Shown piece by piece: positions 9,601 through 62,831 of a DNA stretch of 64,000 nt. Source of the DNA: Hericium rajendrae (lineage: Eukaryota > Basidiomycota > Agaricomycetes > Russulales > Hericiaceae); contig CM065889.1 in the NCBI GenBank assembly GCA_033439255.1, positions 1,116,001 to 1,180,000 of the forward strand. The letters run 5' to 3'. The translations under genes were made by a program, and so were the position numbers. Under the pieces are notes generated by a model. The model did not search any database. It was not told the origin of the DNA and saw only the letters and a list, made by a program, of their open reading frames with translations. Numbering within the stretch: position 1 is the stretch's first letter; each line of letters opens with the position of its first letter.

Positions 9601-10601
9601 ATGTCCGCCACGTCCTGCACATGTCCGCCACGTCCTGCGCACACCCGCAACATCCCGCGCACACCCGCCATGCCCCGCGACCCCCACTGCACCACACCGC
9701 CCTTCACTGCACCTTGTGCACAAGTCAGTGGCCATCCCACACCCTGCACATGCCTGCCGTGCCTCGTGCCCGCCCTCCACATCCTGCTGCACGTCGTGCA
9801 CGGGCCAGCGGCAGCCAGCGTCTCACGCACGGGCCCGCACGCCTCGTGGACTTGGGGCGCCTCATGCTCGCGGACTCGGAGCACCTCATGCTCGCCCGCT
9901 GTGCCTTGCACACGGTCCCCGGTATCTCGCGCATGAGCCCGCCGTGCGCCACGTTTTCTGCGCACACCCCGCGTCTCGCATACGGGCCCGCCGCAGCCCG
10001 ACGCCACCGCGCATGCCGCGGCTCCTCTCGCGCCTCGCGCACGGACCTAGCACGTCGCGCATGGGTCCAACACCTCACGCATGGGTCCAGCATCTCGCAC
10101 GGGCCTGTTGTGCCTCATGCACGGTGCCACGTGCATGACTACCGTGCCACCCACGCCTGCCACGCCTCGTGCGCGTGCACACCCTTGTCGCTCTACCTGT
10201 GCATGCCACGTGCCACTGCACGCGTGCACTGTTTAAAATTGTAGTGTACTTAATTGTAGTAGTAATAGCTGTATTAAATATAAATATAAATGATTTTGAC
10301 TTCATATCTTTCGTACCTGGTTGACTTAAAATAATAATATTAGTATTCATATCTCACTTACTGTAGGGATCATAGGGATCATAGGGACCATAGCAAGCCA
10401 GTGAGCTTATATAGCAGCTATAGCTGCCCCTCAGAAATATATAGCACTATATAGTGTCTAACTACTACTATAGACTATGATAGGCCTCATAGCCTTATAT
10501 AGTTGAGAAAGACAGCTACATAGATGGTTATAGACCTCATAACACTATGATAGGTCATATAAATCAACACTAAACTATATAAAATTTTAATTTCTCAGAT
10601 G
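9601..10601. mobile_element. Right part of a CATCTG-end non-coding element, interrupted by Gypsy copy 1
   Basis: GC-rich, CATGCACG-like sequence (9601-10230) passes into AT-rich DNA and then ATAGC-type subterminal repeats. It ends AATTTCTCAGATG at 10601, the right-terminal sequence also seen at 49336 and 41295. The left part lies beyond Gypsy copy 1 and outside the window. The long frames in the GC-rich part occur in several frames on both strands and are not taken as genes. A TT dinucleotide follows the end. Confidence 0.6.
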
Positions 10602-15699: not shown

Positions 15700-16320
15700 G
15701 AACGGTTCTCAGTTGTGTAAAATATCACTTAGTATAGCTTATCTTGTACATGCAGGGAGTAGACAAAAGTAAGATGTCACCACTGACTTGAAGATGAAAA
15801 ATCTTCTAAGTCAGATGCCAAGAAGATGCCGAAGACAATCCTGGGCAGCACTTACTCAAAATGGTCACCAAAACATAATACTGGAACAATGCCAAAGCAA
15901 TGCTGACAGAATGCTGCAAAGTGCCCTGGAGCACAGACAAAACACCCGAAGTGGTTGATTGAACTACATTTAAGGTGAAAAGAATATTCTGATCATCAAA
16001 GAAGCATTGCACAGATCAAAGAAGCCAGTGATCAGGGACACCAAAGCCTGGATGCTATATTAATAGCATCACTAAGGTGGAATGACCAAGATTAGGGTTA
16101 ATATCAGTATTACTAAGCTAATGCATACTATTTAAGCATGAGAATAAGTCCATATAATATGCTCCATGCCCGAGGGCAGCTGCCATGGGAGCCAATAGCC
16201 TTATACAACTAATGGAGTCTCTTTATTAGCATCTGCCTATTAGCACTCTTACTGGGCATTAGTTGTTGTCATAACATGCTTCTGCTTATTATAATAGTGT
16301 TTAGTACTATAAGGTAAGTA
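15700..16320. other. AT-rich sequence without identified features
   Basis: No open frame, terminal repeat or hairpin is supported between the end of the KDZ remnant and the next hairpin-bearing element. It probably includes the 3' end of the KDZ transposon. Confidence 0.5.
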
Positions 16321-16828
16321 CCTACAGTTGGGCAATGGGAAAGCACAGCGAGGTTCCATAGCAAAGAGACAAAAACCAAGAGTATCGCTCGAATTCGAGC
16401 AATACTCTCGTTAGTCAGTATAAGAAGTGCAATAGATGTTTTGAATGCTTACCAACAAACTCTCAGTTTCTTCAACATCCATGGCCAAAGCCATAACGAG
16501 ACTCAGAGAGCCTTCCTGCATGCCATTGCATAAGCTCTCAGACCAATTGAAGATGCCATGCAAGTGGCAAAGCATTGACAGTGTCTGCATGGCAGACTTC
16601 TGCTCTGCATCGTGCAATGCATTTTGCATAGACACTCCATGTCTGTGAGGGTGAAGGGAAGAGGAGAGCTGCACAAGCATGGTGGCATGTGCACAAAGCA
16701 TGCCGAAGTCGAGCATCATCGAGTCTTTGGTCCATATATGAGATCAGATACAGAGTGGTCAACTGAGGGAGGTGCAGAGTGATGCTGAAATGGAAATTCA
16801 TGCAAGGAAAATACAGCACCCAAGTCAA

Positions 16829-16978
16829 TTCTGAGATACTACGAGTTACTCGTGGGTCACTCACAGGTCTATGTATTTTTGTAAGGTCTCGACCTGGATC
16901 TGCACAGGTCTCAGCCACTGGGTGATCCAGATCTGTGGGTCACATACCTGCGGGTGACTCTGACTCATGTCCAACCCT
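16829..16978 (+). mobile_element. Right-end fragment of the GGGTTCGACAC TIR element family
   Basis: This 150 bp segment matches the right end of the element at 31452-32977. The order GACCTGGATCTGCACAGG, CAGCCACTGGGTGATCC, GGGTGACTCTGACTCATGTC then CCCTA is the same. No matching left end was found upstream, so this is a remnant or a one-ended copy. Confidence 0.55.
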
Positions 16979-17253
16979 AGAAACATGAGAGTCAATGTAC
17001 GTTTGGTGCTTCAGCCACCAAACAAGTGAAGCTGCATTGCACAAGCCTCAACAAATTGAATAAAATTGAATAAAATCAGAAAAAAGGCATACAGCAATAG
17101 AAAATACATTGAGTTGGAATGTATGAAAAAACTATAGATCTACTGTACTGTAAGTCTCTGAGCAACAGCATCAATTTACTGAAGTCTACCAGCCAGTCCC
17201 AGACTGTGGCCCTCAGCAGTGCCCAGCAGCCACAATTCTCAGCTTCACCCGAG

Positions 17254-17290
17254 ATTCATATATAAGGCTCATGCAATGTGCCTTCCCTCT
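17254..17290 (+). promoter_or_regulatory. Conserved TATA promoter of the diverged CATCTG-type element
   Basis: TATATAAGGCTCATGCAATG is followed by TGCC. It matches the TATATAAGGCTGGCACGATG promoter of the element at 46412-49336 (minus strand) and related sites near 40494 (plus), 55950 and 62345 (minus). A pyrimidine-rich leader and a GTAAGC donor follow at 17472. Confidence 0.5.
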
Positions 17291-18439
17291 TGCTCTTTAA
17301 TCTCCATCTCTTGCCACATTGACACCTTCATTGTTGTTGATGCCTTCGTCATCATTGTTTGCTCACTCGTCATCATTGTTTACTCACTCATCATCATGAT
17401 TTACTCACTCGTTGTCATCAGCTCTCTCTGTCATCATTGTTTATTGCTCATTATTGCTGTCTGTCTTAAAGGTAAGCTTTTGTTCTTTATCTCTTATAGC
17501 TTATACTAATGTCTTCATTTTTACTACACTACTTTTTGTAGTTCTACTAGGTAAGTTTTGTTATATAATGTACTGATGTCTTTATGTGTCTTTAGATTTT
17601 CACTTTTTGTTACTTTGGTAAGCTTTTATTTGTTATCTTTGTTATCTTCAAATACTAATGTTGTCTTTTCTTAATTAGATTTTTGCTTGTTGTAGTCATT
17701 GTAAGTTTGTTTGTAGTCTTTTATATTAGTCTTGACTAATGCTTATGTTTTTATAGAAGTTTTCTTAATGTCTATCTTATATAATATAGTGTAGTAATGT
17801 ATCATGATATTTGATATTAGTGAATAAATAAATAAATTTTGTGCTTAACTCTTGTTATGATGAATCTAATTGTATTGTGCTATAATGAAGCCTCATGTCT
17901 AGTTGAATTATGATTTACATGATAAATGTATAATATACAAAGAGTACATAGTAAGCTAGCATAGTATAGACAAGGTAAGCTTTATAGTGTACAGATAATA
18001 CATAGTGACTTAGCATAATATAACTAACATAGTCTTTATAGTCTTTGTACATCTTAAAAAACAGGAAGAGCTACAGTGGGCTACCATGAGCTACAGTAGT
18101 GATCAGAATCCTACCGTAGTGACCTGTAGCTCCCATAGCTCCTGTAGTACTCGTAGGACCCCCTCTACTACCGTGGCTCCGATAGTGAGCTGTAGTAACC
18201 TGTAGTGAATATGTCTCTACTGTAGCAATGAATCTCTTTACAGTAGTTATACAATTCAATGTATAAACAACTATTGATATCCTTATATTTCACTCAATTG
18301 CAATATATCAGAACATTCAAAAACTTTATTTAAGAATAACTACATAACATGAGCTAGCTAATCACTACTCCATACTACATTAGGTCACTTGTGCTGTCAT
18401 CTCACAGATATATAAACACCAGCCCCCTCTACTGTAGTA

Positions 18440-30449: not shown

Positions 30450-30872
30450 TGTCACGGATCGCTCCATTTCTCTCCGCCTTCTTCTCTGCCATCAAGGCAT
30501 CGCGTCGGTCATGTGCTCCAGCAGCCCCATCACATGTTCACTTCCTCACATGACCTGGGGCTATCCTTCACCCATGCCCTTGTTCCCCTTTGGGACATCC
30601 TATTGTTCTCCCTCCCATTGTTCTCCTTTTGGCCACCATTGTTCTCACTCTATTGTTCGATCCGTTATGGTGTCCATTGTTCTTTTCCCATTGTCGTCCC
30701 AGTACTTATAGGCTCCCTGTCACTCGCCTATTTCCCTAGATTGTCCATTTCGTCTGTACCGTACTGTACCTCCAATACAGGTCACTGCGCTGCTAGTCGC
30801 TCTCTGCTCTCTCGCTCTCATCATCGCTGGTGACTTGGGTGGTTCTCTGCTGTCTACGACCGAGTCTTGACA
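30450..30872 (+). repeat. 5' LTR of Gypsy copy 2
   Basis: 423 bp, TGTCACGG ... TTGACA, identical by eye to 41989-42411. Six CCATTGTTCTC-like repeats at 30600-30695 match the known yeast Rox1 HMG-box consensus YYYATTGTTCTC closely. Confidence 0.96.
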
Positions 30873-31059
30873 CCTGGACAATCTCTCATACACCCGCCTC
30901 ACCTCCCTACTATCGCCCATCATACCTTTCTTCTTTGAACCCTTCACCGCCGACATCTTCACCGAATCTTGACATCCATTCCATTAACCTCATCTCCCCT
31001 TCCCCATTGCCAACACCATCGAGGGCAGTGCACTCATCCCCCTCCTCCGCTATTGTGCT

Positions 31060-31451
31060 GTGAAGCGTTGGGAAGCCGAAGGAGTTTGGTTTCAATTGAG
31101 GTCATGGAAACCACGTGCAGGTGCTATCTCCATTGCCTTATACGTTCGAATTCGAGTTTCCTTTGACGTCGACTTGCAAGAATTCACATTCGGTGCCTCG
31201 GACATTGCTTACCACTGTCGCCAACCCAACCGAGGATCCCCTGCAAGCATCCTGCCATCGACCTCGTTCCCCTTTTGCACACTAGGTCTCTTCACCCCGG
31301 AACCCTTGCCTGAGCCTGTGTGGGCCAGAGAACGCCTCGGCCACCGATTCCTCAGAACCCCGTACTCGGACCCCCTGTACCCTCGTGCTCTTGGTCGTCG
31401 CCCAGTTGCGGCTGACTTCCTCTAGACCTCACCATTGATCCCACCGACCTA
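31060..31451 (+). pseudogene. gag: Gag N-terminal region of Gypsy copy 2, interrupted
   Basis: Open in one frame from about 31060 (GTG; no ATG seen in frame) to an in-frame TAG at 31423-31425, then open again to the insertion at 31452. The product has no recognisable domain. It is assigned to gag because removing the inserted element (with one target copy) puts it in frame with the gag body starting at 32979. The TAG could derive from CAG or TGG by one transition. The true start may lie elsewhere or the leader may be spliced. The leader 30873-31059 shows no clear primer-binding site. Confidence 0.55.
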
Positions 31452-32977
31452 GGGTTCGACACGAGTGCACTCGCGGGTGACCCGGATCCGAACCCACGGG
31501 TATTCAACATGGCAGCAGGGCTGACCTGGATCTGCACGAGTTTCAGCCACCGGGTGAACCGGAGCCGCGGGTCGAGTACCTGTGACATCACGGGTCACTC
31601 GCAGGTCAGTCGGTCTCTACTTTCTACACCCTATCATCTCTTCTCTCACGATTTTTCCTCAAGTCCAACAGTAAGGAGGGTTTTGTAGGTGCCAGAGGGA
31701 TGTCAGGTGAGTCAAATCGACTTTTATCTCATTGTTCTGTACTAATCTCGCGAGTCTCGCTCGATAACGAGTGAGACTCGGTTTTTATCGTTCATCGACC
31801 GTCCCTAGACGTTTCCCTCGCCTCTCGCATGCCATTTGTGCTTTGCTCGTCACCCACATGTTCGACAACCCCCTGAGCACCCACCATACCTTTGTCGACA
31901 CGTCAATCCTGCGCGTCGATGCCCACTCCACCCTAAGAGTGTACTTGGCCCCGGTGTGGCGCGTAGAAGGCTAGCGACCACCGACAGCGAACCGCCGGGC
32001 CTTGTTGCTGTAGCAACGAGGCTTGACTACTGTTCGTTCAGCGCTCATGTGGTGTCGCGCCCGCCTACTTGAGCATCCGCCTGATGCGGTGACTTCAATA
32101 CCGTGCCCAGGCGCGCGTGTCTCCGCCTTTCGACAGTGTGCAATTACCCCCGCCCGTCCTGCCGAGATTGGCCTGCCTCCATCTGATGTGCACCTGAGCA
32201 ACCTCATGCTGCCGTTGCCCTGGCTCCGCCTCGCGGCCCTCACGCTCACGCTTCCTCCGCTCCACCGTGCATCTCTCGGACGTCGTCAAGCATTCTCCCA
32301 GCTGCACACGCGACATCGCAGACACGCCCGGCGATGCCTCGACGTGCCTCGCATGTGTCCTCCTGCTGCTCGTGCTGCGCACACTGCGCCTCACCGCGAG
32401 CGTGCTCGCAGACGTGCTCCCCGCGTTGCGTGTGTCAGGCCTCACTGTGCTCACGTCACCGACCTCGATGGCCTTCGCCGCAGACCCTGCCCTTCTCAGC
32501 ATCCCGCGCCCACCGCTGGGCTGCCCATGCCTCGGATGCCTGCGCAGCACCACGTCCAGAGTGCCCGAGCTCGTGTAGTGTGCATGCCGCGACGAGGTGC
32601 TCGTGGTATTGCACAATGGCGCCGCCGATGGCACGGCATGTCCTGTGCTCAAGGCCCTGTGATGGAACTGTGTCCAGGCGTGTCACCTCGCTGCTCGCAA
32701 ATCTAGTTACAATGTCATAGTGTACCAATGCCAAATAAACTCAGTGATGAAATCTATGAGAAGTTGTCAATGAAATCATTTAATTACTATCTTTTTTCCA
32801 AATAGTTGCGGGTCACTACAGGTTACTCGCAGGCCAATGGATTTCGGTAAGATCTTGACCTGGATCCGGACAGGTTTCAGCCACCGGGTGATCCGGATCC
32901 GTGGGTCAGGAACCCGCAGGTAAATCTCGCGGGTATACCTGTGTTGACTTGCAGGTGACTCTGACTCGTGTCGGTCC
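31452..32977 (+). mobile_element. 1.5 kb non-coding TIR element carrying the hairpin module
   Basis: The ends are GGGTTCGACACGAGT and, reversed, GGACCGACACGAGT. A CTA (or CCTA) duplication flanks it at 31449-31451 and 32978-32980. Both ends contain a direct repeat of about 60 bp (GACCTGGATC ... CAGCCACCGGGTGA). The interior holds the same module as the CATCTG elements: donor GTGAGT, TACTAAT, hairpin 31751-31780, then GC-rich DNA with a second hairpin at 31999-32022. The terminal sequences differ from that family, so the module has moved between element types. No conserved coding sequence is seen. Confidence 0.7.
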
Positions 32978-32980
32978 CTA

Positions 32981-34634
32981 CACCGACCCCCGTTTCCAGA
33001 CCACAGAACCATACCCACTTGGCGTCTTTGCCTCGCTCGATGAATACTTCATCTACACCCTTTCTGGCATCGTTCGAATAGACTTTGTCTCGGAGGACGA
33101 CGACGGTCCTGCACAGTGGTACTTCGCTGATCGTGACGACCAGGCAGACCTCGAGCTTAACGACTTTGACGTCGCAGCTACAGAACACCGCCGTCAACAC
33201 CCCGCTACCCCACCGCTTCCCACCGTTGCCCTTTCTAGTGCAGATTCTCCCCCTGCTCGCACCACACCACTTGTTGTTCCCCCAGGTATTACCTTCAACC
33301 CGGTAACCAACAACTACTATGCATACCGCTCCGACACCAATCGGCTCGTAGTCAGTTGGCGACCCAGCCTCGTAGACGAAAGTGATCTGTGGTTTTGGCA
33401 GGCCAGTACCCTCTTCTTAACTGCTGCAGAACTTGCACTCTCTCAGGCAGTTATAGAGAATCTCGCTCAGCAACAAGCTACCCGCCTTGATACCCTTCGG
33501 GCCCCACTACCACCACCTGTTTCAACGCCTACCCCAGTACCAGTCCCCTCACCTGCTCCACCCGTTGCCGCTGCTGCATCGACATCCACTGTCAACGTCA
33601 AACCAATCATCGTCCCAGCCCCCCCTGTCCAACCGTCCATCGACATGTCCAACCCTGAGATCGGCGTCAAACCTGCTCCCTTTGAGGGAGATCGTTCCAA
33701 GTCCAAGGAATTCCAGCTGCGTATTCGCTTATTCCTTCGTGCCAACTCGGTCAGATATAAAGAGGATACCGCCCAGATCTCCCTCTTCCTCGACCTCTGC
33801 CAGGGCCCTATTGCCGGCCAGTGGGCCACCCAGCGTGTCGAGGAGATCCTTGAGGATGACGATCTTGTGGCTGCAAACACATCTCCAGCTCACGTTCCCC
33901 GTTACGCCAACCTCACCGCCCTTCGAACTCGCTTCAACTTGGACTTCTCCCCCCTCGACGACTCCAAGGACGCCTCCCATGCCATCCAGACCCTCCAGAT
34001 GGGTACGCGCCCGGTAGTCGACTACATCACCGAGTTCGAGTCCTTCGCCCCTCGCACCGGCTACAATGATGTGGCCCTGATCGACTGGTTCCTGCATGGC
34101 CTCAACAGCGCCCTGCGGGATGATTGCCAGCGCAGCTACCCCACGCCCACTACCCTGGCTGAGTGGAAGGCAAGGGCCCGTGACAGGAATGCTGCCTACC
34201 TCATGTGCACCCAGTTCCAGAGTCTCCACCCTACAACTGGGCGCACCCCGGTGAGCACTCGCTCCCCTCAGTCCACATCTACTGGCCGATCCCGCACAGT
34301 TGCTGCTACAGGTGCCCCACTGCCCAAACTCTCGGAGCCTGACCGTGAGCGCCTCAGGTGTGAGGGTGGTTGCTTCCGCTGCCGCCAGAAGGGCCATGGC
34401 TTCCGTGACTGCCCCCTCAATGCCGACTCCAACCCCCGTGCCCCAATCCCTCGTGTCCGAGCGCTAGAAACCGGCTCTGCCCCGGGAGTAGCTCCAGAAG
34501 ATGCAGCCGTCGCCCTCGCTGTCCCCGCCATCAACAGGTCCATCACCGACTTATCGTCGCAGTTGAAGGACTTGAGCGAGGAAGAGAGGGAAGAGGCAAA
34601 AGCTGCATTAAAGGATATGGTTGAGGGTTTTTAA
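32981..34634 (+). CDS. gag: Gag body with zinc knuckle (Gypsy copy 2)
   Basis: Continuous frame of about 550 residues after the inserted element. It has an acidic N-terminal region (VFASLDEYFIYTLSG), a conserved block around YYAYRSDTNRLVVSWRPSL, a proline-rich linker, and a capsid-like domain (RIRLFLRANSVRYKEDTAQI ... GQWATQRVEEI). A CCHC knuckle, CFRCRQKGHGFRDC, lies near 34373-34414, and the helical acidic tail ends at TAA 34632-34634. It forms the particle and binds genomic RNA. It runs straight through the site that is interrupted in copy 1 (CTCTG, about 33796-33800), giving the empty site. Pol follows by a -1 shift. The N-terminal segment is separated by the element at 31452-32977. Confidence 0.88.
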
Positions 34635-34666
34635 AGCGCCCCCCGGTCACGTCGTCCGTGGGTGGC
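34626..34666 (+). promoter_or_regulatory. Putative -1 frameshift signal, gag to pol (copy 2)
   Basis: Same five-T run at the gag stop (34628-34632) and same downstream GC stem as at 6790-6830. Pol again lacks an ATG. Both copies keep it exactly. Confidence 0.55.
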
Positions 34667-36363
34667 AAGAAACATTTCTTTGATCCGTCGAATCGCTTCT
34701 CTGTACTATCCGACCCCTGTGAGCAATCGTATCCATCGTCTTTGCGCATGTCCGCTATCACGCCCAACCGTCAGACACCGTCCATTACGCTCCAGGCCAA
34801 GATTATCACTACCCCGATCAAGAAACAAATCGACGCTGAGGCACTTCTCAATAGTGGTGCAGAAGGCATCATTATGCACCCCGAGTTTGCCAAGAAACAC
34901 CAGTTCCCCCTCAAGAAACTCCCTAAACCCTTTCCCGTTCGCAATGTGGACAACTCCGAAAACATCATGGGCTGGGTCCGCTATTCAGTCAACCAGAACA
35001 TCCGCATTTACGCCAAGGACTCGACGTCCTTCTATGAGGAGACAGCTGAGTTCTATCTCGTTGACATTGGCGACTATGACATTATCCTTGGGACCGATTG
35101 GTTACAGGAACACAACCCTGAAATTGACTGGGTCTCTCGTCGTGTCGACATGACTCGCTGCCCTCCCTCTTGCACTCTGAATAAACCCCCGGTCAAGAAC
35201 CTGTCCACTCACACTGAACGCCGCCACTCAGCCCCTCGTCCACCAGTTCTCAGCGCTGCTGCAGTACTGCTCCCCCCACCTGGCCCCCCTCCATTGCTCC
35301 CACTGCCCCCACCATTTGTTGCTGCTTCACTTCCCAAATACGTGATCCCCGCTCGCCGAGTCCAAGGTGTCCGCCTTCGCCGCATCCACCTGTCCAAAGT
35401 CCCTGCACGTCTATTCACCGAGGACGATGACCCCCGACCTAATGTCGATGACGACTGGGTTGAAGAGGGCCTTCGTCTAGCTGGTGTTCTCCCTGACTGG
35501 GACACACCACCCCCACCAGACGACGACCCCGACTATCAACACACCATCCGTATCCGTCGCTCTTTCACCAATGCTCAGAAACTGGCGGAGCGTGTGGCCA
35601 CTCGTGTTGCAGAGAAGTCCTTTGCTGAGATGGTTCCCCCTCAGTATCAGGATTTCCAACCTGTCTTCGATGAGGAATCCTCCCATCGCCTCCCCGAACG
35701 TCGCCCTTGGGATCACGCCATTGACCTGAAAGATGGTTTTGAACCTCGCTCCTGCAAGGTCTATCCCATGGCTCCTACTGAGCAGGAGGACCTCGATTCA
35801 TTCCTTGATGACCAGGTCAAGAAAGGCTACATCCGTCCTTCCAAATCCCCTATGGCGAGTCCCTTCTTCTTTATCAAGAAAAAAGATGGAAAACTACGCC
35901 CCGTCCAGGACTATCGCACCCTCAACAAAGGCACCATCAAGAATGAATATCCCCTGCCCCTCATCTCTGAACTCGTTGACAAGCTCAAGGGTGCCAAAGT
36001 CTTCTCCAAGATGGACGTTCGTTGGGGTTACAACAACGTTCGCATCAAGGAGGGCGACGAATGGAAAGCCACCTTCAAAACCAACCGCGGTCTCTTTGAA
36101 CCCCTGGTGACGTTTTTTGGTCTTACCAACTCCCCTGCCACGTTCCAAGGAATGATGAATGAACTATTCAAGGATCTCATCGATACAGGCAAAGTCGTCA
36201 TCTACATGGACGATATCCTCATTTTCACCGAAACCCTCGAAGAACATCGCGACCTTGTGCACAAGGTCCTCCAACGCCTCCAGGACAATGACCTCTTCCT
36301 CAAACCGGAGAAGTGCTCGTTCGAGCAGCCCTCAGTTGAGTTCCTCGGTCTCATCGTCTCCCA

Positions 36364-36943
36364 CATCAAAAAGGTTGACAACTTTCTGATTGACCTGACA
36401 ATTTCTAACCCTACTGACAGCTCCTGATTGACCTGATCCACCTGAAAGCAATCTTGAGAAGCAAATATCTGATCAAACTTTTACATTTAAGTAAAGACAT
36501 TTATTGTCAGATATATAAGTTTGTAATCTCTAACTAATAAATATAACAAAATCTCTGATATCTGAAATTTTCTAAATCTGAGAGTGTCTGATCTGAGATT
36601 TTTTCAAATCTGGAGGTCAAATATCTGAAAATTATCTGCAACTGTCTGAGAGCATCTGATGGTGTCTGACACTGTCTGATCCATCTGACTGATATTTGAC
36701 CTCCAGATTTGAAATCAGACACTCTCAGATTTTGAAAAATTTCAGATATCAATGATTTTGATATATCTATTAGTTAGAGATTAAAAACTTATATATCTGA
36801 CAATAAATGTCTTTTCTTGAATGTAAAAGTCTGATCAGATATTTGCTTCTCAAGATTGCTTTCAGGTGGATCAGGTCAATCAGAAGCTGTCAGTAGGGTT
36901 AGAAATTGTCAGGTCAATCAGAAAGTTGTCAACCTTCCTGATG
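36364..36943. mobile_element. 580 bp foldback MITE with Plavaka-like ends
   Basis: The two halves are nearly complete inverted repeats of about 270 bp. The left end starts CATCAAAAAGGTTGACAACT and the right, reversed, CATCAGGAAGGTTGACAACT. A CA duplication flanks it (36362-36363 and 36944-36945). The empty site is in Gypsy copy 1 near 8522-8530 (TCCCATAACACG). TCTGA motifs fill the arms. The terminus closely matches the left end of Plavaka-2 (CATCAGGAATCTTGACAATT), so a Plavaka transposase is the likely mobiliser (inference). Confidence 0.9.
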
Positions 36944-39927
36944 CATAACACGCTCGCCATGGACCCCGTCAAGGTTGCAGGCATTGCTGAATGGCCTGCC
37001 CCTTGTAATGTCAAGGACGTCCAGTCCTTTGTTGGCTTTGGCAACTTCTATCGATGCTTTATCCAGGACTTCTCCAAAGTCGCTCATCCCATGTTTGACC
37101 TTACCAAGAAAGACCATCCTTGGGCCTGGTCTGCTGAATGTCAACATGCCTTTGAGGCTCTTAAAGCTGTGTTCACCTCGTCCCCAGTCCTTATCATGCC
37201 TGACCCGTCCAAACCCTACCTGGTTGAGGTCGATGCCTCAGACTATGCCACAGGAGGTATCCTATCCCAGTGCGGGGAGGACGAGCAATGGCACCCTGTT
37301 GCTTACATCTCCAAGGCCTTCACCGCCCCCGAACGCAACTACGACATCTATGACAAGGAACTCCTGGCCATCATTCGTGCCCTCGAAGCCTGGCACCACT
37401 ACCTGGAAGGTTCTCCCCATACTGTGGAGATCTGGACCGACCATAAGAACCTGGAATACTTCAAGTCTGCCCAAAAGCTGAGTCGTCGTCAAGCTCGCTG
37501 GGCTCTCTTCCTCACTCGTTTTGACTTCACCCTGATCCACAAACCCGGTATTCATCACCGGCCAGATGCCATGTCGAGACGACCTGACCATAGAGAGGGG
37601 GTGGACGACGACAACTCCGATCGTGTCCTCCTCGACCCCAAGTACTTCCAGATCTGTGCTACACGTCCAGCTGCTGTCAAGTCCATTGGCAATGCTGATC
37701 TTCGCCAATGCATTCGCAATGCCAAGACCAAGGACATTGAGGTTGTTCAAGCCCTTGATGTGATCCTGAACAATGGTCCTCGCTCCCTCATCAAGAACCT
37801 CCAGGAATGGAACTATGAGGATGGCCTCATCCTCTTTCGTGGCAAAGTCTACATCCCTGCTGACAAGGACCTTCGTTGGGACATCATCAAGCTGCATCAT
37901 GACACCCCCATGGCTGGTCACCCAGGACGCTACAAGACCTATGAGCTCCTCAGTCGCAACTACTGGTGGCCCGGTATGTCTGTCTTCATTCGTGATTATG
38001 TTGATGGCTGTGCTACCTGCCAGGCCACCAAGGTTCAAAATCACTGCCCTCATGTTGAAACAATTCCCAATGCCATCCCTACCCGTCCCTTCCAAGACAT
38101 TACCTCGGACTTCATCGTCAAACTCCCAGAATGCCAAGGCTATGACTCCATCAATGTGGTCGTCGACCGTTTTACAAAGCACGTCTCCTTCACTCCTTGT
38201 AAAGAGACCATTACCAGTGATGGCACAGTCGACATCCTTTTTGACAGGATTTATCGGAACTACGGCCTCTGGGAACGCCTCATCTCTGATCGTGGCCCAC
38301 AGTATGCAGGCAAAGTCATGCGTGGCGTCTTTGACAAACTTGGTATCAAGTCCTCCCTCAGCACCACCTATCATCCACAGACCGACGGCAAGTCAGAACG
38401 TGTCAATCAAGAACTCGAGCAGTTCCTTCGCACCTTCTGCAACTACCGTCAGGATGATTGGGTCCAATGGCTCCCTTATGCTGAGTTCTCGCACAACCAC
38501 CGTATCCACAGCGCCACTAACCGAGCTCCATTTGAAATGCTCCTCGGCTATCATCTGAAAAATCTAATTTTTATATAGCAAAAGGTCAAGCTATGAGTCC
38601 TATAGGTAAGCTATAGAGTCTATGGCTCTTAACTTGCCAAGCTATGTAGAGCTATGATAGTTATCATAGCCTTCATAGCAGATAGTGTAAAATACATAGC
38701 CTACATAGTTAGTACTGTCAAATACATAGAGCTATCATACTTGCTAAGGGGAGCTATGGCTCCTATCAATACTATGCTGAGTATGCTAAGTCAAATAGGC
38801 ATCAGATGTGTGAAGTCTAAATTATTAGATTATGATGTCACTAGTACTACAAACTGGTCTGCTACATTACAGAAGTATACCGAACAGATCTCGTACATAC
38901 ACAACGGCGCACACTGACGACGTAGCGCCCGTCGTCGCAGCTGTTCACGCGGCGCGTACTCTATACGCGTGCGGGCGCTGGCGCAGTCGTCGGCCACCGG
39001 TGTGCACGGCCTCGCGCACGCAGACGCGGCTGCCCGTGCGCGTGCAACCTCATCAGCGTGCGCAGCCCCGCAGCTGCCGTGCATACGCCGTCGCCAGCGC
39101 GTATGGCCTCGCGCGTGCGTATGGCCTCGCGCGTGCGTATGGTCTCGCGCGTGCAGATGCGACTGCCCGCACGCATGCGCATGAGCTGGCGCCGTCGTCC
39201 GCTGGTCTCGTGGCCCCGCGCGAGTAGACGGGGACCGTGCGCATGTGCACTGGCTGGTCGTGAGCGGCCCTGCACGCCATCGCCGGCCTGCGCGGCCCCG
39301 CGTTGGCAGACGAGGCCGTGCGTGGGGCTGGCAGGTCCTGCGTGTCTGCCTCGCTGCGGTGCGCACACGCACGCGCTCGCGCGACCATCTGCGGCCGTGC
39401 ACAGGCGGGGCGGGCCGTATGTGACAGCCCACGCACTGGCGGGGCGTGCGTGACAGCGTGGCCGTCCGCCGCCGTGTGCGCGCTGTTGGGGTTGAGTGCG
39501 TACACGCGCTGGCGCGGTCATTGCAGCCGTGCACAGGCGGGATGAGGCCGTGCGTGACAGCCCGCGCGCTGGCGGGATCGTCCGCGGCTGCCGGCACGCG
39601 CGTGCGCACGCTGGCGCGGTCGTCCGCCGGCGGGCATGGCCCCGCGCGCGCAGTCCGTAGCTGCCAGCGCAGTGCGCACGCAGGGTGCACTGACGACCGT
39701 CCGCGACCGCGCGCAGGGAGTTGCCAGCGTGGCCACACGTACGCGGGCGGGGCCACACGCACGCGTGCGCGGGCATGCGTGCGCTGGCAGCGTGGGGGCG
39801 AGGGCGGGGGCGGGGACAAGGGCGGGAGCGGGGACAAGGGCGGGAGCGGGAGCGGGAGCGGGAGCGAGGGCTTGCGCGTCGGTGTTCCGGTGGAGGGGGA
39901 GAGCACGTCGCACAACGTTTAGTCGAA

Positions 39928-39949
39928 TCTCGTTGCCGCGGCAACGAGA
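39928..39949. repeat. GTTGC hairpin in E1
   Basis: 22 nt perfect palindrome, TCTCGTTGCCGCGG then CAACGAGA. Counterparts are at 31999-32022, 48091-48116 and 63289-63316, with stem changes that keep pairing. Confidence 0.8.
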
Positions 39950-40032
39950 CCCGACGTCGACGTCGACGACGGCGTTGTCGAGAGAGTGGCGTGGGGCTGG
40001 GTGGGCTCGTGGGCCCCGGTCGTGAAACGATA

Positions 40033-40065
40033 CGAGTATCGCTCGTTTGGAACGAGCGATACTCG
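40033..40065. repeat. Intron-type hairpin in E1
   Basis: Perfect 15 bp stem (CGAGTATCGCTCGTT) with a 3 nt loop. It lies next to CTAAT and, on the minus strand, downstream of a GTAAGT donor. Counterparts are at 16380-16407, 31751-31780, 47729-47761, 56388-56421 and 62798-62831. Confidence 0.85.
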
Positions 40066-40484
40066 TTTGATTAGCACGAAGACAAAAAAAAAGGATGGTA
40101 TTTACTTACCTAGAGGCCCATGATCCTCCTGCTTACCCTTCCGACCGTCGGCCGACGCCGTGCGTTGCTCGTGTAAAGGAAGAGGGGAGGGCAGACGCGG
40201 GCAGACGAGGTGGGAGATGGAGAGAAGAGATGCACTAAGTCGCGCGTCGAGCCACCGACTCGCGCGTCTGGCGGTTTCGAATGCAACAAATCAAATAAAT
40301 TCTTGTAAAATCCGAAAAAAAACGCAAATGGTATATATTATCTGTTTGCGCACAATGAATGAGCTACATACGTATATACTCCCCTCTAATTCCTTGCGCA
40401 GCTAAGCCAACATAGTGAGATCTAATGGCTAGCCTCGGCGCGACATCCGGCAGCCACATTTCGGGCTCCGCCGGACAGATCCGA

Positions 40485-40611
40485 ACGCTGCGTTTATAAC
40501 GCTCGCACGACGCGCGTTCCCTCTTGTCTCTCAACCACTACCATCTCCTCTCGTCCTCCCTTCTTCCTCTCCGTCATTCCTCTTTAACTTTTTTGTCTTC
40601 GGTAAGTATGT
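40485..40611 (+). promoter_or_regulatory. Promoter and leader of E1 micro-exon transcript
   Basis: A TTTATAACG box is followed by the palindromic CGCACGACGCGCGTTC, then a C/T-rich leader to the GTAAGT donor at 40612. The arrangement recurs in four other copies. Confidence 0.5.
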
Positions 40612-41988
40612 GTATCTATGTTCATTAGTATTAGTATATTAATGTATTGGTTCTGTAGACTTGAATTTTCGCTTTTTGTCTCTGATGGGGTAAGTCTTTT
40701 CTTATATCTGTTGTCACTTATGTTGATGATGTGGCATCTTTGTTAGACTATTTTTCGACTTTTTTATGCTTGGTAAGTCTTATGCATTGTTCATGTGAGT
40801 CAGTTTCACTTATATTTGTATCTTGTATATTTTTATAGTCTTTATATATGTAAATAATTTAGTATAACATCTGTACTTATATATGAGTTAATATATTGTT
40901 TTTGAATTTTCGATGTTTGGATGGCTTGATGTATATTTAATCTAATGAGGCTATAAAATATTTAAATTTCTATAGAATCTTTATAGTAGGCCTAAGTCAT
41001 ATATACAACAGAGTTAATATAGACTAGATAGCAATCCTAATTGATTAGATATGATATGATAATGAGTATACAGAATATAGCTGACATAGCTCCTATAGCT
41101 ATGATAGCTATGCCTTATGCTCTGATAGTTATGATAGCTATGATAGTATAGCATAGCTATCCTATTTGACTACATAGCTTATCATAGATTGGCTCTCAGC
41201 TATGAAAGCTCTATGTATAAAAGGGGATTGCTATGAAACTATGAGTTCTATGTAGATGATATAGGACAATATAGCATTGGTATATTTTTCAGATGATATT
41301 CCCACTGCCATCCCCACTGTCAACCCCACATCGTCTACACCCACCGTCGAGGATCGTTTCCGTCATCTCGAACAACTTCGCACTGAGGTCCAGGCCAGCC
41401 TTCAAACAGCTGCTGATCTCATGAAGCGCAACAACCAGGACCATATGCACGACACCATCCACTTCCAGGTTGGTGACAAGGTCTGGCTCGATGGCAAGAA
41501 CATCAAAACCACGCGACCCAAAGCTAAGCTTGCTGATCGACGCCTGGGACCTTTCGAAATCACTGACGTCCTGGGCCCAGTCTCTTATCGACTGAAGTTA
41601 CCGCCCACCTGGCGTATCCACCCGGTGTTCCACATGTCCCTGTTGTCCCCTTACAAGGAAACCGATGCTCATGGTCCCAACTTCCCTGCACCACCACCTG
41701 ACCTTGTGGAGGGTGAGGAAGAGTACGAAGTTGAGTCTGTCCTCGATGCTCGTCTCACCCGGAACAAACGCGGCATTGAATATCTCGTCAAATGGGCAGG
41801 CTACCCTGATTCGGAAAATCAGTGGCTTTCACGTACCTCCCTTTCCAATGCCCATGGTGCAATCACCGACTTCTACACCCGCCATCCGCATGCACTCAAG
41901 GCCCCCAATCTTCATGGACTCATCTACCTCGACCCCGTCCATGCTCATCACGCACTCCAGGTGAAAGTGCGTCTTAGAGAGGGGGTGA

Positions 41989-42411
41989 TGTCACGGATCG
42001 CTCCATTTCTCTCCGCCTTCTTCTCTGCCATCAAGGCATCGCGTCGGTCATGTGCTCCAGCAGCCCCATCACATGTTCACTTCCTCACATGACCTGGGGC
42101 TATCCTTCACCCATGCCCTTGTTCCCCTTTGGGACATCCTATTGTTCTCCCTCCCATTGTTCTCCTTTTGGCCACCATTGTTCTCACTCTATTGTTCGAT
42201 CCGTTATGGTGTCCATTGTTCTTTTCCCATTGTCGTCCCAGTACTTATAGGCTCCCTGTCACTCGCCTATTTCCCTAGATTGTCCATTTCGTCTGTACCG
42301 TACTGTACCTCCAATACAGGTCACTGCGCTGCTAGTCGCTCTCTGCTCTCTCGCTCTCATCATCGCTGGTGACTTGGGTGGTTCTCTGCTGTCTACGACC
42401 GAGTCTTGACA
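41989..42411 (+). repeat. 3' LTR of Gypsy copy 2
   Basis: 423 bp, identical by eye to the 5' LTR. Preceded by polypurine GAGAGGGGGTGA and followed by AAAGA (42412-42416), after which the Plavaka-1 transposase resumes. Confidence 0.96.
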
Positions 42412-42945
42412 AAAGAGTCTCAACTTCCTCGTGCACCATACACAATTGATATTTTTCACTCTGCAATTGCTGTGTATCGTTCTCCAAGTGATTTATCAGG
42501 ACTTACAAATATGCATCGTCATCGTATTCGATCTACACCTGAGTGGAGACATGGACCTACACGTCGAGATTGTGTTTTTGTTGAAAATAATCCAGAGTTG
42601 CCAGGAATGCAAGGACTTTATGTGGGACGAGTTCTGATGTTTTTTTCATTCAAACATAACACTGTCATATATCCTTGTGCATATATAGAGTGGTTTATTC
42701 CCATTGGAGATCAGCCAGATCCTGATACTAAAATGTGGATTGTAGAGCGAGAAGTTGATGAAGATGGTAAGAATATTCGTTCAGTAATTCATGTTGACAC
42801 TATCTTGCGAGGAGCTCATTTGATGCCTGTTTTTGGAGAACAGTTTCTTCCTTTTGACTTTGACTATACTTATTCCTTAGATGCCTTTAATACATACTAT
42901 GTAAACAAGTTTTCTGATTATCATGCCAATGAAATAGCCTTCTGA

Positions 42946-44770
42946 TTGAGTATTTGAATATTTTGTTATGCTATGTAAGAACAAGTAAGTTGTATAATTA
43001 TTTGTATGTATATACTAAGTCAGCAGTGATAAAAAGATAAATGTTTCAGTAGTATTAGATCTATAACAGTAAAGTTTTATCTTGTTTTGCTATGGAACAA
43101 CTACAGCCAACAATAGAATTAAAATTTAAAAATCTTTGTATCTCAACATATCTAAGTTTATATCTGAAATGTCTGACTTTGTTCTGAAAATTAGGACTTT
43201 TCTGACTATGTTTGATGTCTGACATTGATATAAAAATCTGACAAATATCATAAAGTTTAATTGACCTGATAAAGCCTAGATAATAAAAATACTATCTGAG
43301 AATGTTATTATTTCTGAGACTTTTTTAAAAGTCTGACTTGTAATAAAGATCTGATACTTGTAAACATTATGAATAGTCTGAATAATTATGAGTCATTTAA
43401 TTATATCTGAAACTTATCTTTTTGCTGAAAAGTTTTTCCAATCTGATTTGATTGAGTAGTTCTGATAAATGTTCACACTTCTGATATGTCTGACACTATC
43501 TAAATAATAGACATCTGCTTGACTTTGTTAAAAAAATACCTCTGTAACTGTTGATAAAATGTTTGACAGATTTCAAGAATTCTGATATATGCACAAAGTT
43601 TGAAATGCCTTTAATTGTGTCTAAACAAAGAAGGTCTATCTAATTATATCTAAGATTTGAAACTAGTTTGACTTTTTATGCAATGTCTGAGTGTAAGCAC
43701 TATATGTGACAAGATATCAATATCTGAACTATCTGATTGTGTCTGAAGGATGAAGATCTAAATGATCATGTCTGAAAAACAGACATCTAAATGATTAGAT
43801 CTGCTATTTTACACAATATCTGACAATAATCTCTATGTCTGACAGAATTTGAAAGTCTAATAGCTCTGATTTATCTGATACATAGACATTGAAATGATTG
43901 TGTCTGAAAAACAGACACCTAAATGATTAAGTCTGCTATTTTACACAATATCTGATAACAATCTCTATGTCTGATAGAATTTAAAAGTCTAATAACTCTG
44001 ATTTTATCTGATACATAGACATTTTCATGATTGTGTCTGAAAAACAGACACCTAAATGATCATATCTGAAAATCAGACACCTAAATGATTAGGTCTGCTA
44101 TTTTACATAATATCTGACAACAATCTCTATGTCTGACAGAATTTAAAAGTCTAATAGCTCTGATTTTATCTGATACATAGACATTTAAATGATTGTGTCT
44201 GAAAAACAGACATCTAAATGATCATGTCTGAAAAACAGACACCTAAATGATTTTGTCTGCTATTTTACACAATATCTGACAATAATCTCTATGTCTGATA
44301 GAATTTAAAAGTCTAATAGCTCTGATTTTATCTGATACATAAACATTTAAATGATTGTGTCTGAAAAACAGACATCTAAATGATCATGTCTGAAAAACAG
44401 ACACCTAAATGATTTTGTCTGCTATTTTACACAATATCTGACAATAATCTCTATGTCTGATAGAATTTTGAAGTCTAATAGCTCTGATTTTGTTTGAACA
44501 CTAGAGGTTGAAATGATTATGTCTGTGAGATAAATTGTTTCTGAGTATTGGTCTGAGATACATTATGTTTCTGAAAAAATGTAAAATTTCTGGCAAAATT
44601 AGCTATATCTGAAAGTATTTGGTGATCTGATGATTCTGACAGTATCTGGAGCATATCTGAAGTCAAAAAGTATCTATTCATTGTTTTATGCATATCTGAT
44701 TTCAGACACTTGACATTTTCCAGACTAGTCATGTTGTCAGATCACTCATGAAATTTGGCCTTTGCTGATG
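42946..44770. repeat. Plavaka-1 right subterminal region with tandem repeat
   Basis: TCTGA motifs become dense from about 43140. Between about 43740 and 44500 five tandem units of 133-163 bp can be counted by the phrase TCTGCTATTTTACA at about 43803, 43931, 44094, 44257 and 44418. Each also carries GTCTGAAAAACAGACA, a short inverted repeat. The region ends at the right terminus, 44770. There is no gene. Confidence 0.75.
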
Positions 44771-46262: not shown

Positions 46263-47728
46263 CTTGGTGGAAGAGGGCCGATGCTTCGCACGGCAATACG
46301 ATTCCTTTTTCATTGTTAGTTATATTTAGAAACAGTGCATAAATGATGTAAAGTCTCACTTGTCAGATTGATTATAAATCTCTATAAAATCTATAGCTAC
46401 CTCAAGGTCAACATCTGAGAAATATGTTACTGGTATATAACACTATATTAGCTACATAGCTTTTCTAGGTCCATAGCTGTCCTCTTTTATACATAGCAGT
46501 CAAGTAAACAATGCAAAGCTATCATAGCTTGTCATAGCTGTCATAGCATAGGGCATAAGCTATCATAGCTGTCATAGTTATTCTAGTATAAGATAACTAT
46601 AGAAGCTATATTAACTATATAATATATCTCTATCATTATATTATATCTAGCTAGTAAGATTTCTATCTACTCTATATTACTTCTATCAAATATGCTAAAA
46701 TAGCATATAAAATAAATATATTATAGATTCAATAGTCTGATGTCTTACAGTCACAAACATCGAAAATTGGATAAATTATATTACTCAAACAATTTCATTA
46801 CAAAACATTACTATAGCTACAGAGACTACTACAGAACTATAAAAGGTAACAAACTTACAATGACTACAAAAAACAAAAGATACAAATAAGAAAAGACATG
46901 AGTATTAGAAGATAACAAAGATAATATATGAAGACTTACCAGATTAACAAAAAAGTGAAAATCTACAAGACAATTTGAAGACATCAGTATAAGAAACAAT
47001 CAAGCTTATCTAGTAGGACTACATGGTAGTGTAATAAGTATGAAGACATTAGTATAAGTTATAAGATAATTAAGAATAACAGCGTACCTTTAACAACGAA
47101 GAGAACAATGATTAATAAAATGAGCAAACGACAATGACGAGTGAGCAAATGATGATGATGAGTGAGCAAACGATGACAAGTGAGCAAATGATGACAACAA
47201 ATGTGTTGACATGGCAAGGGATGGTGGGGGTTAAAGAGCAAGAGGTAAAGCGCATCGTGCCAGCCTTATATAGGAATCCCAGACGGAATTGGAATTTGTG
47301 GTTGCTGGGTGCTTGCCGAGTGTTGTAGCAGAGACTGGATGCCAGACTTTACTACGTTGATGCTGCTGCTCACAGATTCACAGTTCAGTAGATACACAGT
47401 GTTCTCATACATTCTAATTAAATGTATAATCTATCACTGTCCCTTTTTTCGTTGAATTTATACAAGTTTATTTGATTTGCTGAGGCTTGAGCAACAAAGC
47501 TTTGCTCATTCAGTGGCTGAAGCACCGAGTTTAACATGTCGAGACTTCACTCCTTTTTACCAGTCTCCCTTCCCCTCCTTCGTGTTTCCTCCTCCAGCCT
47601 CCTTCCTTCCATTTCTTTCATTCTCTATTGGCTTTCAATACGGCTGGGATGGTTTTTTTTAGCAGATACTTAGAGGGCCTTAGGTGAGTAAAAAAAAAAG
47701 CCTCTTATCATTTTTTCGTACTAATCAA

Positions 47729-47761
47729 GAGAGTGTCAATCATTTTTCGAGTGACACTCTC
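47729..47761. repeat. Intron-type hairpin in E4
   Basis: GAGAGTGTCA pairs with TGACACTCTC (10 bp). TACTAATCAA precedes it and a GTGAGT donor lies about 45 nt upstream. Confidence 0.8.
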
Positions 47762-48090
47762 GATATCTTTTATTCTGTTGATCCCACATCCTCGCGCTAC
47801 CATCCTACGATCCTGCTGCCTTTTTTGCACTCTCATCGCCCCTTCCTTGGCCTGTCTACACCACATCCACGCCCTGCACACAGCTCGTACACCCCATGCC
47901 TGACTCCAACAGGCTGCGACCCCTGCGCATGCCTCCGACCACCATCTCCTTCCACGTGCACCAGCATGCACAAGGCTACAGCATGCGTGCATGTGTGTAC
48001 CACGTGACGTCATCTGCACGATGTCAACAACATGTGCACACAGGCCACGTCATCGCCCATGCCCCACGTCCATGCATGTGCATGCACCAT

Positions 48091-48116
48091 AGTCCCGTTG
48101 CCATGGCAATGGGACT
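48091..48116. repeat. GTTGC hairpin in E4
   Basis: AGTCCCGTTGCC then ATGGCAATGGGACT. The stem differs from other copies at paired positions and keeps one G-U pair. Confidence 0.8.
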
Positions 48117-49336
48117 CGGACGTCATTCATGCCTATCGGCCATGACCCCACATGCTCGCCTCAATCCCTGCAAGGCCTCATGCTCACGTTCAACACCGTG
48201 CATGCTTGCAATGTCCTGTCCATGCACTCAAGCCCCCACACCCACTCACAACACCCTGCACCTGCTCACAACACCTCGGACATGCATGCCATGCCCGGTT
48301 GCATGTATGCTCCTGCACCTGCTCAACTCAACATGCCCTGCGTGTGTGCACATCGATCTGCACAGGTGCACAACAATCACACATGCGTGACGTGCCATAC
48401 AGTGCCTCTTCGTGCATGCAGAATGTTCTGCAGGCCCGCTTCAGGCCTCCTGCACATGCTCGACACCTGCGCGTGCCCGACATCCCCCGCACGTGTCCAG
48501 CTCCACCTCCACATGTGCACAGATGCCAGTGCATGGCGGCACTGCAAGACCCCATCCCACAGCAATGCATGCACGACACCCAGCATTCACACTCAATGCC
48601 ACTTGCCTACAACACCCTACATGCGCGCATGCTCCCGCGTGCCTGCTCAACACCCCGCACCCTCCAGATGCTCTGCGTACATGCGCAACATCCCACATGC
48701 ATGTACACAACCTGCATGCATGCACGGCAGCCCTGACCCCATTTGTGGGCATGGCCACCCGCATGCAGCTACACATGGTCCAGCTTGCCGTGCATGGACC
48801 ATGTATGCTGTGTGCGGCCCACACCTACCTCTGTGCTCTCTGTGCTGGCATTCGTGCATGCCGCACCACCTTTTGTATGCACATGCTGTCTTTTGTGTGC
48901 CCGCGCTGTCTTTGCACCTGTGCCTGCACCCTCCACAGTGACTTGCATGCCCTCCGCATCCTGTGCCCTATGCAGTAGCTCGACTAGCTTATATATGTAT
49001 GGTAGTAGATTTATTATATGTATGGTAGTAGATTTATTACAATTTATTATAATAAATTCTGACTTGTAATATCTGGTGCTTATCTGACTTGTGGTAGTAA
49101 TCATAGGCATCATAGTAGCCATAGCACACCTTGTTAATCATGATAGCCCTATGTATATCAGACTACAAGCTATGGAGGCTATGATAACCCTATGAATGTC
49201 ACACTGTCTGCTATGTAGGCTATGATAGCTCTCATAGCTCTACATAGCTGGATAAGCAAACTTCATAGCTCTGATAGCTCAATGATAGCACCTATAATGT
49301 AACCTGCAGCTATGTCAAATTTAAATTTCTCAGATG

Positions 49337-50570: not shown

Positions 50571-50624
50571 AAGTGCTCATGTGATCACAACCATGGTACA
50601 GCTGTACCATGATGAAGTGCTTCA

Positions 50625-55962: not shown

Positions 55963-56387
55963 GTGGGTTTCCCCAGCGGAGCCACAAATGTGGCTGCCGG
56001 AGCCCAGCCCGGGCACCACGTCAGAGGCTAAGTGCTAGATTTTCGTAAGTTTGCTTCGCTGCTCAGTAGCTTTCAGTAGTTTATTTAGAGATGTACTCAA
56101 TTCAATCGAATTATATTATCATACGCTTGCTACTCTCTTTTTCCTGAAATTATTGTGATTTTATCCGCTTTACAAAGTTCAAAAACATTCGAACTCACAC
56201 ACGTTCGGTGGCTGAAGCACTGAAGTCGCGTCGTCGACTCTACCTCTCTAGCTCACTCACCCTAGCTACTCCCCATCTTTGTGTTTCGTCTTCTCTCATC
56301 AATCTAAAGGATGCAGGTGTCTTACAGGGATTCAGGGACACGAGGTAAGTAAAAAAAGTCTGTATTTTGCGTGTAAAATACTAATCT

Positions 56388-56421
56388 CGAGAGTACCACT
56401 CCTCGATGAGTGGTACTCTCG
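56388..56421. repeat. Intron-type hairpin in E2
   Basis: 14 bp perfect stem (CGAGAGTACCACTC) with a 6 nt loop, immediately after ATACTAATCT and about 40 nt after a GTAAGT donor. Confidence 0.85.
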
Positions 56422-62400: not shown

Positions 62401-62797
62401 GCCCGGGCATCACGTCAGAGGCTAAGTGCTAGATTTTTGTAAGTTTGCTTCGCTGTCCAGTAGCTTACAGTACCTTACTTGAATATGTTTCTCATTGGGT
62501 CGAGTTGAATGTATGAACGCTAGATGCTGTTTTTTGTTCAGAAATTATGCAATTTTATTTGAATTGCTAGGCTCGAAATCATTCTAACACGCCCGGTGGC
62601 TGAAGCTTGACGCTTGGAGCCTCAACGTGTCGTTCAACTTCGTCTCGAAATCCACTATCCTCACTCCCTCTCAGCCCTCCTCTCTTGTCTTTTCTTATCA
62701 CTCTTATTAACCTGAAGGCTGGATAGGTCGAGAAGGATGTCGAGGGACCCAGGTGAGTAGAAAAAAAAGCTATGTTCTCTTAAACTCGTACTAATCT

Positions 62798-62831
62798 CGA
62801 GAGTCTTGCTTGTTATTGAGCGAGACTCTCG
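62798..62831. repeat. Intron-type hairpin in E3
   Basis: CGAGAGTCTTGCT pairs with AGCGAGACTCTCG (13 bp, one G-U). Same position as in the other copies. Confidence 0.85.

Follow-up and report, generated by a model that had tools for sequence, protein, structure and literature searches.

Non-autonomous CACTA/CMC elements and miniature inverted-repeat transposable elements (MITEs) are moved by a transposase supplied in trans, have repeated subterminal motifs and occur in many copies. MITEs are usually short and have no conserved internal transcription units. In this work, we analysed a 64,000-nucleotide stretch of the Hericium rajendrae genome (contig CM065889.1, positions 1,116,001 to 1,180,000, or G000:C12:1116001-1180000 in our numbering), referred to below as the window, searched the whole genome (46.8 Mb, 19 contigs) and focused on four elements of the window, E1 to E4. 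They were similar to the groups above in their repeated subterminal motifs, their many copies and a probable dependence on a transposase in trans; in contrast to MITEs, they kept their internal layout over diverged subfamilies. The explanation that we favour, and consider fairly probable, is that they are Plavaka-dependent non-autonomous transposons keeping a non-coding, spliced and structured cassette.

Pack-TIR elements (Pack-MULE, Pack-CACTA) may carry gene starts between transposon ends. The cassette was similar to them in its gene-start-like content but different in that its intron appeared to be under structure constraint. Some introns, as in yeast, have structure between the branch site and the acceptor; here, such structure was present in many transposon copies and was accompanied by an AG-poor stretch. 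With respect to the ends, the described PlavakaB group was the closest, with CATCA..TGATG termini and duplications of 2-3 bp according to the accessible part of Kojima 2025 (PMC12730594). Our elements shared CATC.. termini and 2-bp duplications with it, and the same genome had Plavaka genes bracketed by CATCTGGAAAAAG ends. On the other hand, they had no transposase, CATCT was commoner than CATCA, a non-coding cassette was located inside, and the Plavaka end that we read lacked their ATAGC subterminal repeats.

Ends, copies and subfamilies of the elements

The elements of the window were located as follows.

38552..41295, minus strand: E1 of 2744 bp, with its promoter side to the right, interrupting a gypsy integrase frame, duplication AT
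46412..49336, plus strand: E2, 2925 bp, within a 158-bp tandem repeat, duplication AA
55210..57923, plus strand: E3 of 2714 bp, interrupting an open frame, duplication AA
61584..64000, plus strand: E4, truncated here by the end of the window, with its right end at about 64415 and duplication CT
9601..10601, plus strand: right, GC-rich half of another element, which ends with CAGATG at 10601
38890..39905, no strand assigned: GC-rich, CpG-rich block of E1, approximate limits

The ends of E1, E2 and E3 were inverted copies of CATC(T/A)(G/C)ARAAAT, and clusters of ATAGC/GCTAT within the window were confined to the ends of E1 to E4 and of the half element at 9.6-10.6 kb. An earlier annotation of the window (the original prediction) had proposed such termini with 2-bp duplications, and both were present where it placed them (AT/AT for E1, AA/AA for E2 and E3, CT/CT for E4); the partial element that it listed at 9601-10601 was indeed related, with only the right half present. 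A set of 15 full elements was cut out of the genome. All of them had CATC at both ends, and 14 had equal 2-bp flanks without a fixed sequence (AT, GC, TC, TG, TC, AG, TA, GT, AA, TG, TC, TT, TC and AA), the exception being L070:899-3557, which was flanked by GA and TT. E1 to E4 are non-autonomous DNA transposons. A Tc1/mariner identity was rejected since TA suited only some of the sites and the duplications also included GC, TC, TG and AA.

The uninterrupted target sites could be read, as had been predicted. Joining the flanks of E1 left the gypsy integrase frame open, joining those of E3 also left a frame open, and the next unit of the 158-bp tandem repeat showed the E2 site intact. The joined E1 flanks (298 bp) were uninterrupted at 40 of 40 scored places in the genome, with 98-99% identity (one of them from base 2). 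E1 had therefore moved recently, given that the two long terminal repeats of its host gypsy were identical over 425 bp. Even so, the best full-length relative of E1 in the genome was only 74% identical, and the best long partial one was 86% identical over 1.3 kb.

Genome-wide, the left-end pattern had 176 matches and the right-end pattern 227, with none for either control. Among the matches listed, 69 left and 94 right ends were examined for an inward partner within 20 kb; 43 of the 69 left ends had one and 26 had no listed partner. The spacing of the 43 listed pairs was 2681-2969 bp in 29 cases, about 3.3 kb in three and longer (3.8-18.5 kb) in 11, while the outward-facing control gave 10 scattered values. 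The original prediction of a single family gave way to several diverged subfamilies. Namely, the E1 group had eight full copies that were 67-80% identical, the E3 group had five (61-97%), and mutual matches between E1, E2 and E3 were limited to short stretches. The shape of the GC profile was alike in all 15 full elements, as judged by eye.

The predicted hairpin intron and the divergent unit

Each of the four elements carried, on the strand reading away from its left end, a candidate intron with a hairpin.

40104..40109, minus strand: 5' splice site GTAAGT of E1
40069..40076, minus strand: branch site TGCTAATC of E1
40032..40066, minus strand: intron hairpin of E1
47684..47761, plus strand: hairpin intron of E2 (GTGAGT at 47684, TACTAAT at 47719, hairpin 47729-47761)
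56345..56420, plus strand: hairpin intron of E3 (GTAAGT at 56345, TACTAAT at 56379, hairpin 56389-56420)
62753..62831, plus strand: hairpin intron of E4 (GTGAGT at 62753, CTAAT at 62791, hairpin 62798-62831)

In this right-going unit, a CT-rich leader exon ended at a donor, mostly GTRAGT or GTAAGC, which was followed 32-38 nt further by a branch site (TACTAAT, TACTAAC or TGCTAAT, for example) and then by a hairpin whose stem had 11-19 positions. Donor and branch site look like those of a spliceosomal (U2-type) intron, and we infer from such signals that the units of the elements would be transcribed and spliced. The hairpin arms were 0.91-0.95 identical and the branch site 0.96-1.00, compared with 0.46-0.49 in the GC-rich block and 0.57-0.68 in the spacer between donor and branch site. 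Thus, the conservation above background that had been claimed from the sequence held for the hairpin arms and the branch site, but not for the TATA and exon-end/donor blocks of the E1 group described below.

The structure was supported by covariation. In 34 aligned introns, 97.0% of the stem cells paired (25-47% in slid controls), and 44 cells had double changes in comparison to 11.7 after shuffling. G-U/U-G cells exceeded A-C/C-A cells (14 vs 3 without the loop-closing pair, 15 vs 6 with it). The hairpin pattern occurred at 227 genome sites and at none in the control. A chance hairpin was therefore rejected on the pairing, the double changes and the number of genome sites. No known RNA family was recognised, with 0 Rfam matches at gathering score in 95355 bases from 6 sources. 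Ten sites were also fetched by the hairpin pattern alone, picked among the first 50 so that their loops varied; in all ten, a donor at -44 to -47 and CTAA(T/C) at -8 or -10 were present together, on one strand only.

Downstream of the hairpin, 52 distinct copies were examined in 50-nt bins. The observed/expected ratio of AG was 0.32, 0.43 and 0.46 in the first three bins, while that of GA was 1.85, 1.19 and 0.99; at 150-400 nt past the hairpin the ratios were 0.59-0.75 for AG and 0.63-0.81 for GA, and beyond 400 nt AG reached 0.80-0.86. In 25 of 42 copies, no more than 5% of the shuffles had an AG-free run of that length. The first AG was located at a median of 97.5 nt past the hairpin, and its context was CAG in 30 copies, TAG in 7, GAG in 11, AAG in 1 and at an edge in 3, so that CAG or TAG accounted for 37 of 49, although the acceptor assignment itself was a guess. 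Such depletion would be expected if the first AG served as the acceptor and earlier AGs were counterselected.

The same hairpin might instead be a DNA-level palindrome that binds a transposase or a host factor, its place after a donor and a branch site being incidental. The stem is a nearly perfect inverted repeat, as this explanation needs, and a second palindrome, GTTGCCNNGGCAA(C/T), was present in the GC-rich block of seven of the eight E1-group copies, of E2 and of the L070 element, while none of the five E3-group copies had it. On the other hand, the donor and branch site found at a fixed distance and on a single strand in all ten blind cases, the AG depletion downstream and the excess of G-U over A-C on the predicted RNA strand speak for RNA, and we consider the DNA-level role distinctly improbable. 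The GTTGCCNNGGCAA(C/T) palindrome was located about 1335-1400 bp from the left end of the E1-group copies and resembles an RFX X-box.

With respect to its place in the element, a strict-pattern hairpin was found within 4 kb of 22 of 94 left ends among the matches listed; the other 72 had none, since strict patterns miss subtypes and the matches were listed in part. The distance was 1.20-1.47 kb for 18 of the 22 left ends (hairpin on the same strand for 14, no strand given for four) and 1.7-2.1 kb for three, and one had an opposite-strand hairpin only. Additionally, in L022 (2661-2746 and 3178-3260) and L023, the first hairpin intron was followed by another one about 516 nt downstream.

Toward the left end of the elements, a second putative unit ran in the opposite direction.

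40490..40502, plus strand: TATA block of the E1 left-going unit, from the sequence and the alignment of copies
40602..40778, plus strand: E1 donors at 40602, 40690 and 40773 and two micro-exons with TTTTCG(C/A)(T/C)TTT

The order toward the left end was a TATA block, a CAACCACTAC block, and then donors with micro-exons around TTTTCGCTTT. TATAA was present on the reading strand in all eight E1-group and all five E3-group full copies, and the identity of the CAACCACTAC block was 0.87 and 0.97 in the E1 and E3 groups. In a 490-bp stretch of the 15 elements, 41 donors (GTAAGT, GTAAGC or GTGAGT) were on the predicted strand and 3 on the other, with 4.8 expected from shuffling. Micro-exons of the form AG-motif-donor, where the donor was GTAAG, GTGAG or ATAAG, were found in 14 of 15 elements; E2 had two donors, yet lacked the micro-exon motif of the other 14. 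In the E3 group, the TATA block (0.90) and the exon-end/donor block (0.89) were well conserved, while in the E1 group both stood at 0.75, no better than the surrounding 60-bp windows (0.71-0.83). Accordingly, the promoter, micro-exons, hairpin and GC-rich block that the original prediction described as shared were seen together in the E1 and E3 groups but not in E2, which was without the micro-exon motif. Of the splice positions given in the original prediction, 40690, 17618 and 56345 were correct in the sequence, while 40612 had to be moved, the first E1 donor being at 40602. About 16 bp beyond the TATA block there was also a conserved imperfect palindrome, such as CCGGCGGAGCCCGAAATGTGGCTGCCGG (identity 0.90-0.91), located 822-849 bp from the left end in the E1 group and 764-791 bp in the E3 group.

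Transposons that carry or could move the cassette

The genome had 132 Plavaka matches. Plavaka elements of this genome ended with CATCTGG, and two copies, L069 and L070, were 94% identical over 3.2 kb and ended together at CATCTGGAAAAAG. This 13-mer had 47 occurrences in the genome (2 in the control), and three pairs of it, 12416, 12415 and 12414 bp apart, bracketed Plavaka genes on C4 and C2. The CTAA(T/C)CAA subtype was represented by 25 hairpins among the first 100 of 133 listed, and 11 of these 25 had CATCTGGAAAAAG facing inward 1.4-2.0 kb downstream (by eye, among the matches listed). Therefore, a hairpin-bearing subfamily shared its exact end with an autonomous-looking Plavaka family. 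The termini of the elements appear to resemble those given for the PlavakaB group in the accessible part of its description, usually one base off, and we did not file the elements as PlavakaB members since CATCA at both ends was found in 0 of 15. The original prediction of an undescribed family thus stood only in part: the termini resembled a described group, while the cassette itself was not found described in literature titles and abstract openings, a search beyond which most subscription papers lay.

From the ends, the duplications and the shared 13-mer, we infer that a Plavaka-type transposase (of the CMC-like clade) would move the elements in trans by cut-and-paste. It would recognise the CATC(T/A)G ends and probably also the ATAGC-type subterminal repeats. 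KDZ as a partner was rejected, because KDZ loci did not track the hairpins (by eye, among the matches listed) and because the 8-bp duplication of Zisupton, as given in the accessible part of PMC12730594, counted against it.

A number of results spoke against this explanation as a whole. The recount of CATCA gave one end in 5 of 15 elements and both ends in none, unlike PlavakaB, and lowered our confidence slightly. The Plavaka end that was read had no ATAGC cluster, the matches listed included no autonomous element whose ends were ATAGC-rich like those of E1 to E4, and of the 11 listed end pairs outside 2.0-3.5 kb only one contained a Plavaka match, which was nested. Moreover, 14 of the 25 listed CTAA(T/C)CAA hairpins had no CATCTGGAAAAAG end nearby, only that end having been located. 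As for the intron, the pairs with a double change were 6 of 14 vs 4.4 after shuffling, with 64 of 500 shuffles as high, and the count of further pair types was matched by 208 of 500. The automatic donor was misplaced in 4 of 42 introns (L019, L021, L030 and L060) and was set by eye, and L060 had no clear donor. Seventeen of 42 copies were not individually AG-poor at 0.05, and in some copies the first AG followed the hairpin at a short distance (0 nt for L046, 9 nt for L032 and L060, 12 nt for L042). Finally, the element copies were related, so the counts were not independent.

The 12.4-kb Plavaka elements sharing an end with the hairpin subfamily, together with long open frames in the GC-rich block, raised the possibility that E1 to E4 were remnants of larger coding transposons after gene loss. 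In a crude test of seven pairs of the GC-rich block, there was no three-base periodicity of substitutions, and indels were not in threes. A search of 5.8 billion proteins with one E3 frame (366 aa) gave no relative, and Pfam had no match for the frame tested from each of E1, E2 and E3. A coding GC-rich block was rejected on the absence of codon rhythm in this crude test and of a protein relative for the tested E3 frame. The original prediction that no conserved protein was visible agreed with all three tests, which were without signal. Its own alternative, fragments of a larger coding transposon, was not borne out by the codon rhythm, the E3-frame search or the clustered lengths. Together with the same layout in diverged subfamilies and the absence of a strict hairpin motif inside the three 12.4-kb Plavaka elements on C2 and C4, these results left the remnant explanation with little probability. 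The interior of the elements would rather be a conserved non-coding cassette for divergent transcription than a deleted transposase gene.

The hairpin intron was also present in elements with other ends.

31450..32980, plus strand: hAT-like element with TAGGG..CCCTA ends, 8-bp duplication CACCGACC and a hairpin intron at 31707-31788
16300..16979, minus strand: hAT-like fragment with a hairpin intron, branch site near 16414, one end at 16979, lower limit approximate
17005..18050, plus strand: E2-like promoter and micro-exon half (17005-17711 74% identical to E2), interrupted near 18050 by a 371-bp repeat

The element at 31450-32980 (1531 bp) was located inside the same gypsy as E1, and a second one, L043:637-2225 (1589 bp, 8-bp duplication ATCACCCC), carried the hairpin intron as well. 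Both were similar to hAT-type non-autonomous elements in their 8-bp duplications and TAGGG ends, which we take to fit the hAT rule, and different in carrying the hairpin intron of the CATC elements. At 1e-3 with loose scoring, 31450-32980 aligned with 7 of the 15 full elements and L043 with 5 of 15, at 61-70% identity over 91-311 bp (best 1.8e-13). Thus, the module was not tied to one kind of transposon end. The joined site of 31450-32980 had no open frame in three forward frames. The stretch at 16.3-18.4 kb, predicted to be a diverged relative, turned out to be a composite of a hAT-like fragment, an E2-like half and the 371-bp repeat. This repeat, of about 371 bp at 18050-18420, had 26 further full-length matches among those listed, with 95-98% identity.

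Two transposon kinds with the cassette would also be expected from independent captures of the 5' part of a host gene, as in Pack-type elements, without a present function in the transposon; the promoter, leader exon and first intron do look like a gene start. We consider this unlikely since most copies were 20-39% different, yet stem pairing was kept through double changes. In the explanation that we favour, selection acting on the RNA would maintain the intron in the different subfamilies.

Neighbourhood and meaning of the cassette

Both the hAT-like element (31450-32980) and E1 (38552-41295) were inserted in the gypsy at 30448-42411. The Plavaka genes of the window (26448-30708 with a C-terminal piece at 42433-42959, and 54607-51537) were 31-35% identical to L069 and belonged to another lineage, and the first of them was split by the gypsy; their termini were not found. 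Named relatives of the L069 Plavaka protein included Dentipellis and, together with the Plavaka and KDZ genes of the window, pointed to an agaricomycete. Beside E2, tandem repeats of 158-159 bp were located at 49337-49967 and 50614-51049. E2 had ten further matches on contig C12 with 98-100% identity, some of them partial. Two E2 matches were 28.9 kb apart and two E3-type copies had the same spacing, which suggests a segmental duplication, perhaps in a centromeric location. The stretch at 57924-61583, which had E3 close to its start and E4 close to its end, was gene-like, and one piece of it that was tested had no Pfam match. A CxC2 domain, a companion of KDZ transposases, was found at 12567-13160 (Pfam E 8e-34).

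Because the signals were conserved, we propose that the cassette would be expressed from a divergent promoter and spliced over the hairpin. One arm would give a short RNA with micro-exons, and the other a CT-rich leader exon followed by the hairpin intron. The hairpin between branch site and acceptor would hide nearby AGs from the spliceosome and guide it across the AG-poor stretch to an acceptor far downstream, within the GC-rich block. An intron under selection that is also present in hAT-like elements would be a portable module helping its carrier. The benefit would most likely be that the element stays transcribed and spliced, and hence out of silencing.

E3 and its close copy L010 had 93 differences, of which 77 were CpG against TpG/CpA, and 74 of these were lost in the window copy, so E3 had decayed in the manner of methylated CpG. 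The CpG observed/expected ratio of the GC-rich block was 0.61 in E2 and 1.00-1.48 in the other 14 elements. In the accessible part of PMC12730594, fungal transposons carry TET/JBP genes that are common to several superfamilies and are proposed to counter silencing. The hairpin module was similarly an accessory found across transposon superfamilies, with the difference that it was non-coding. That the cassette helps its carriers to avoid silencing is a conjecture, consistent with the CpG decay, with the occurrence of the module in two superfamilies and with the TET/JBP precedent. In its widest form, which we put forward only tentatively, the cassette may be a portable, protein-free RNA module (a hairpin-bridged intron with an AG-poor tract and, in the CATC elements, a divergent promoter) that is shared by Plavaka-type and hAT-like superfamilies and shields their transcripts from RNA- or methylation-based silencing, in analogy to the TET/JBP genes but without coding.

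Non-autonomous elements are usually regarded as gutted copies with a freely drifting interior. Here, a spliced-looking, structured and non-coding unit was kept in two end types though most copies differed by 20-39%, and this suggests that the element profits from the RNA or from its production. Basidiomycetes (Cryptococcus) can use stalled spliceosomes as a cue for small interfering RNAs, and a transposon intron built for splicing would make the link between splicing and silencing testable. Moreover, the hairpin cassette would allow such elements to be recognised clearly when repeats are annotated.

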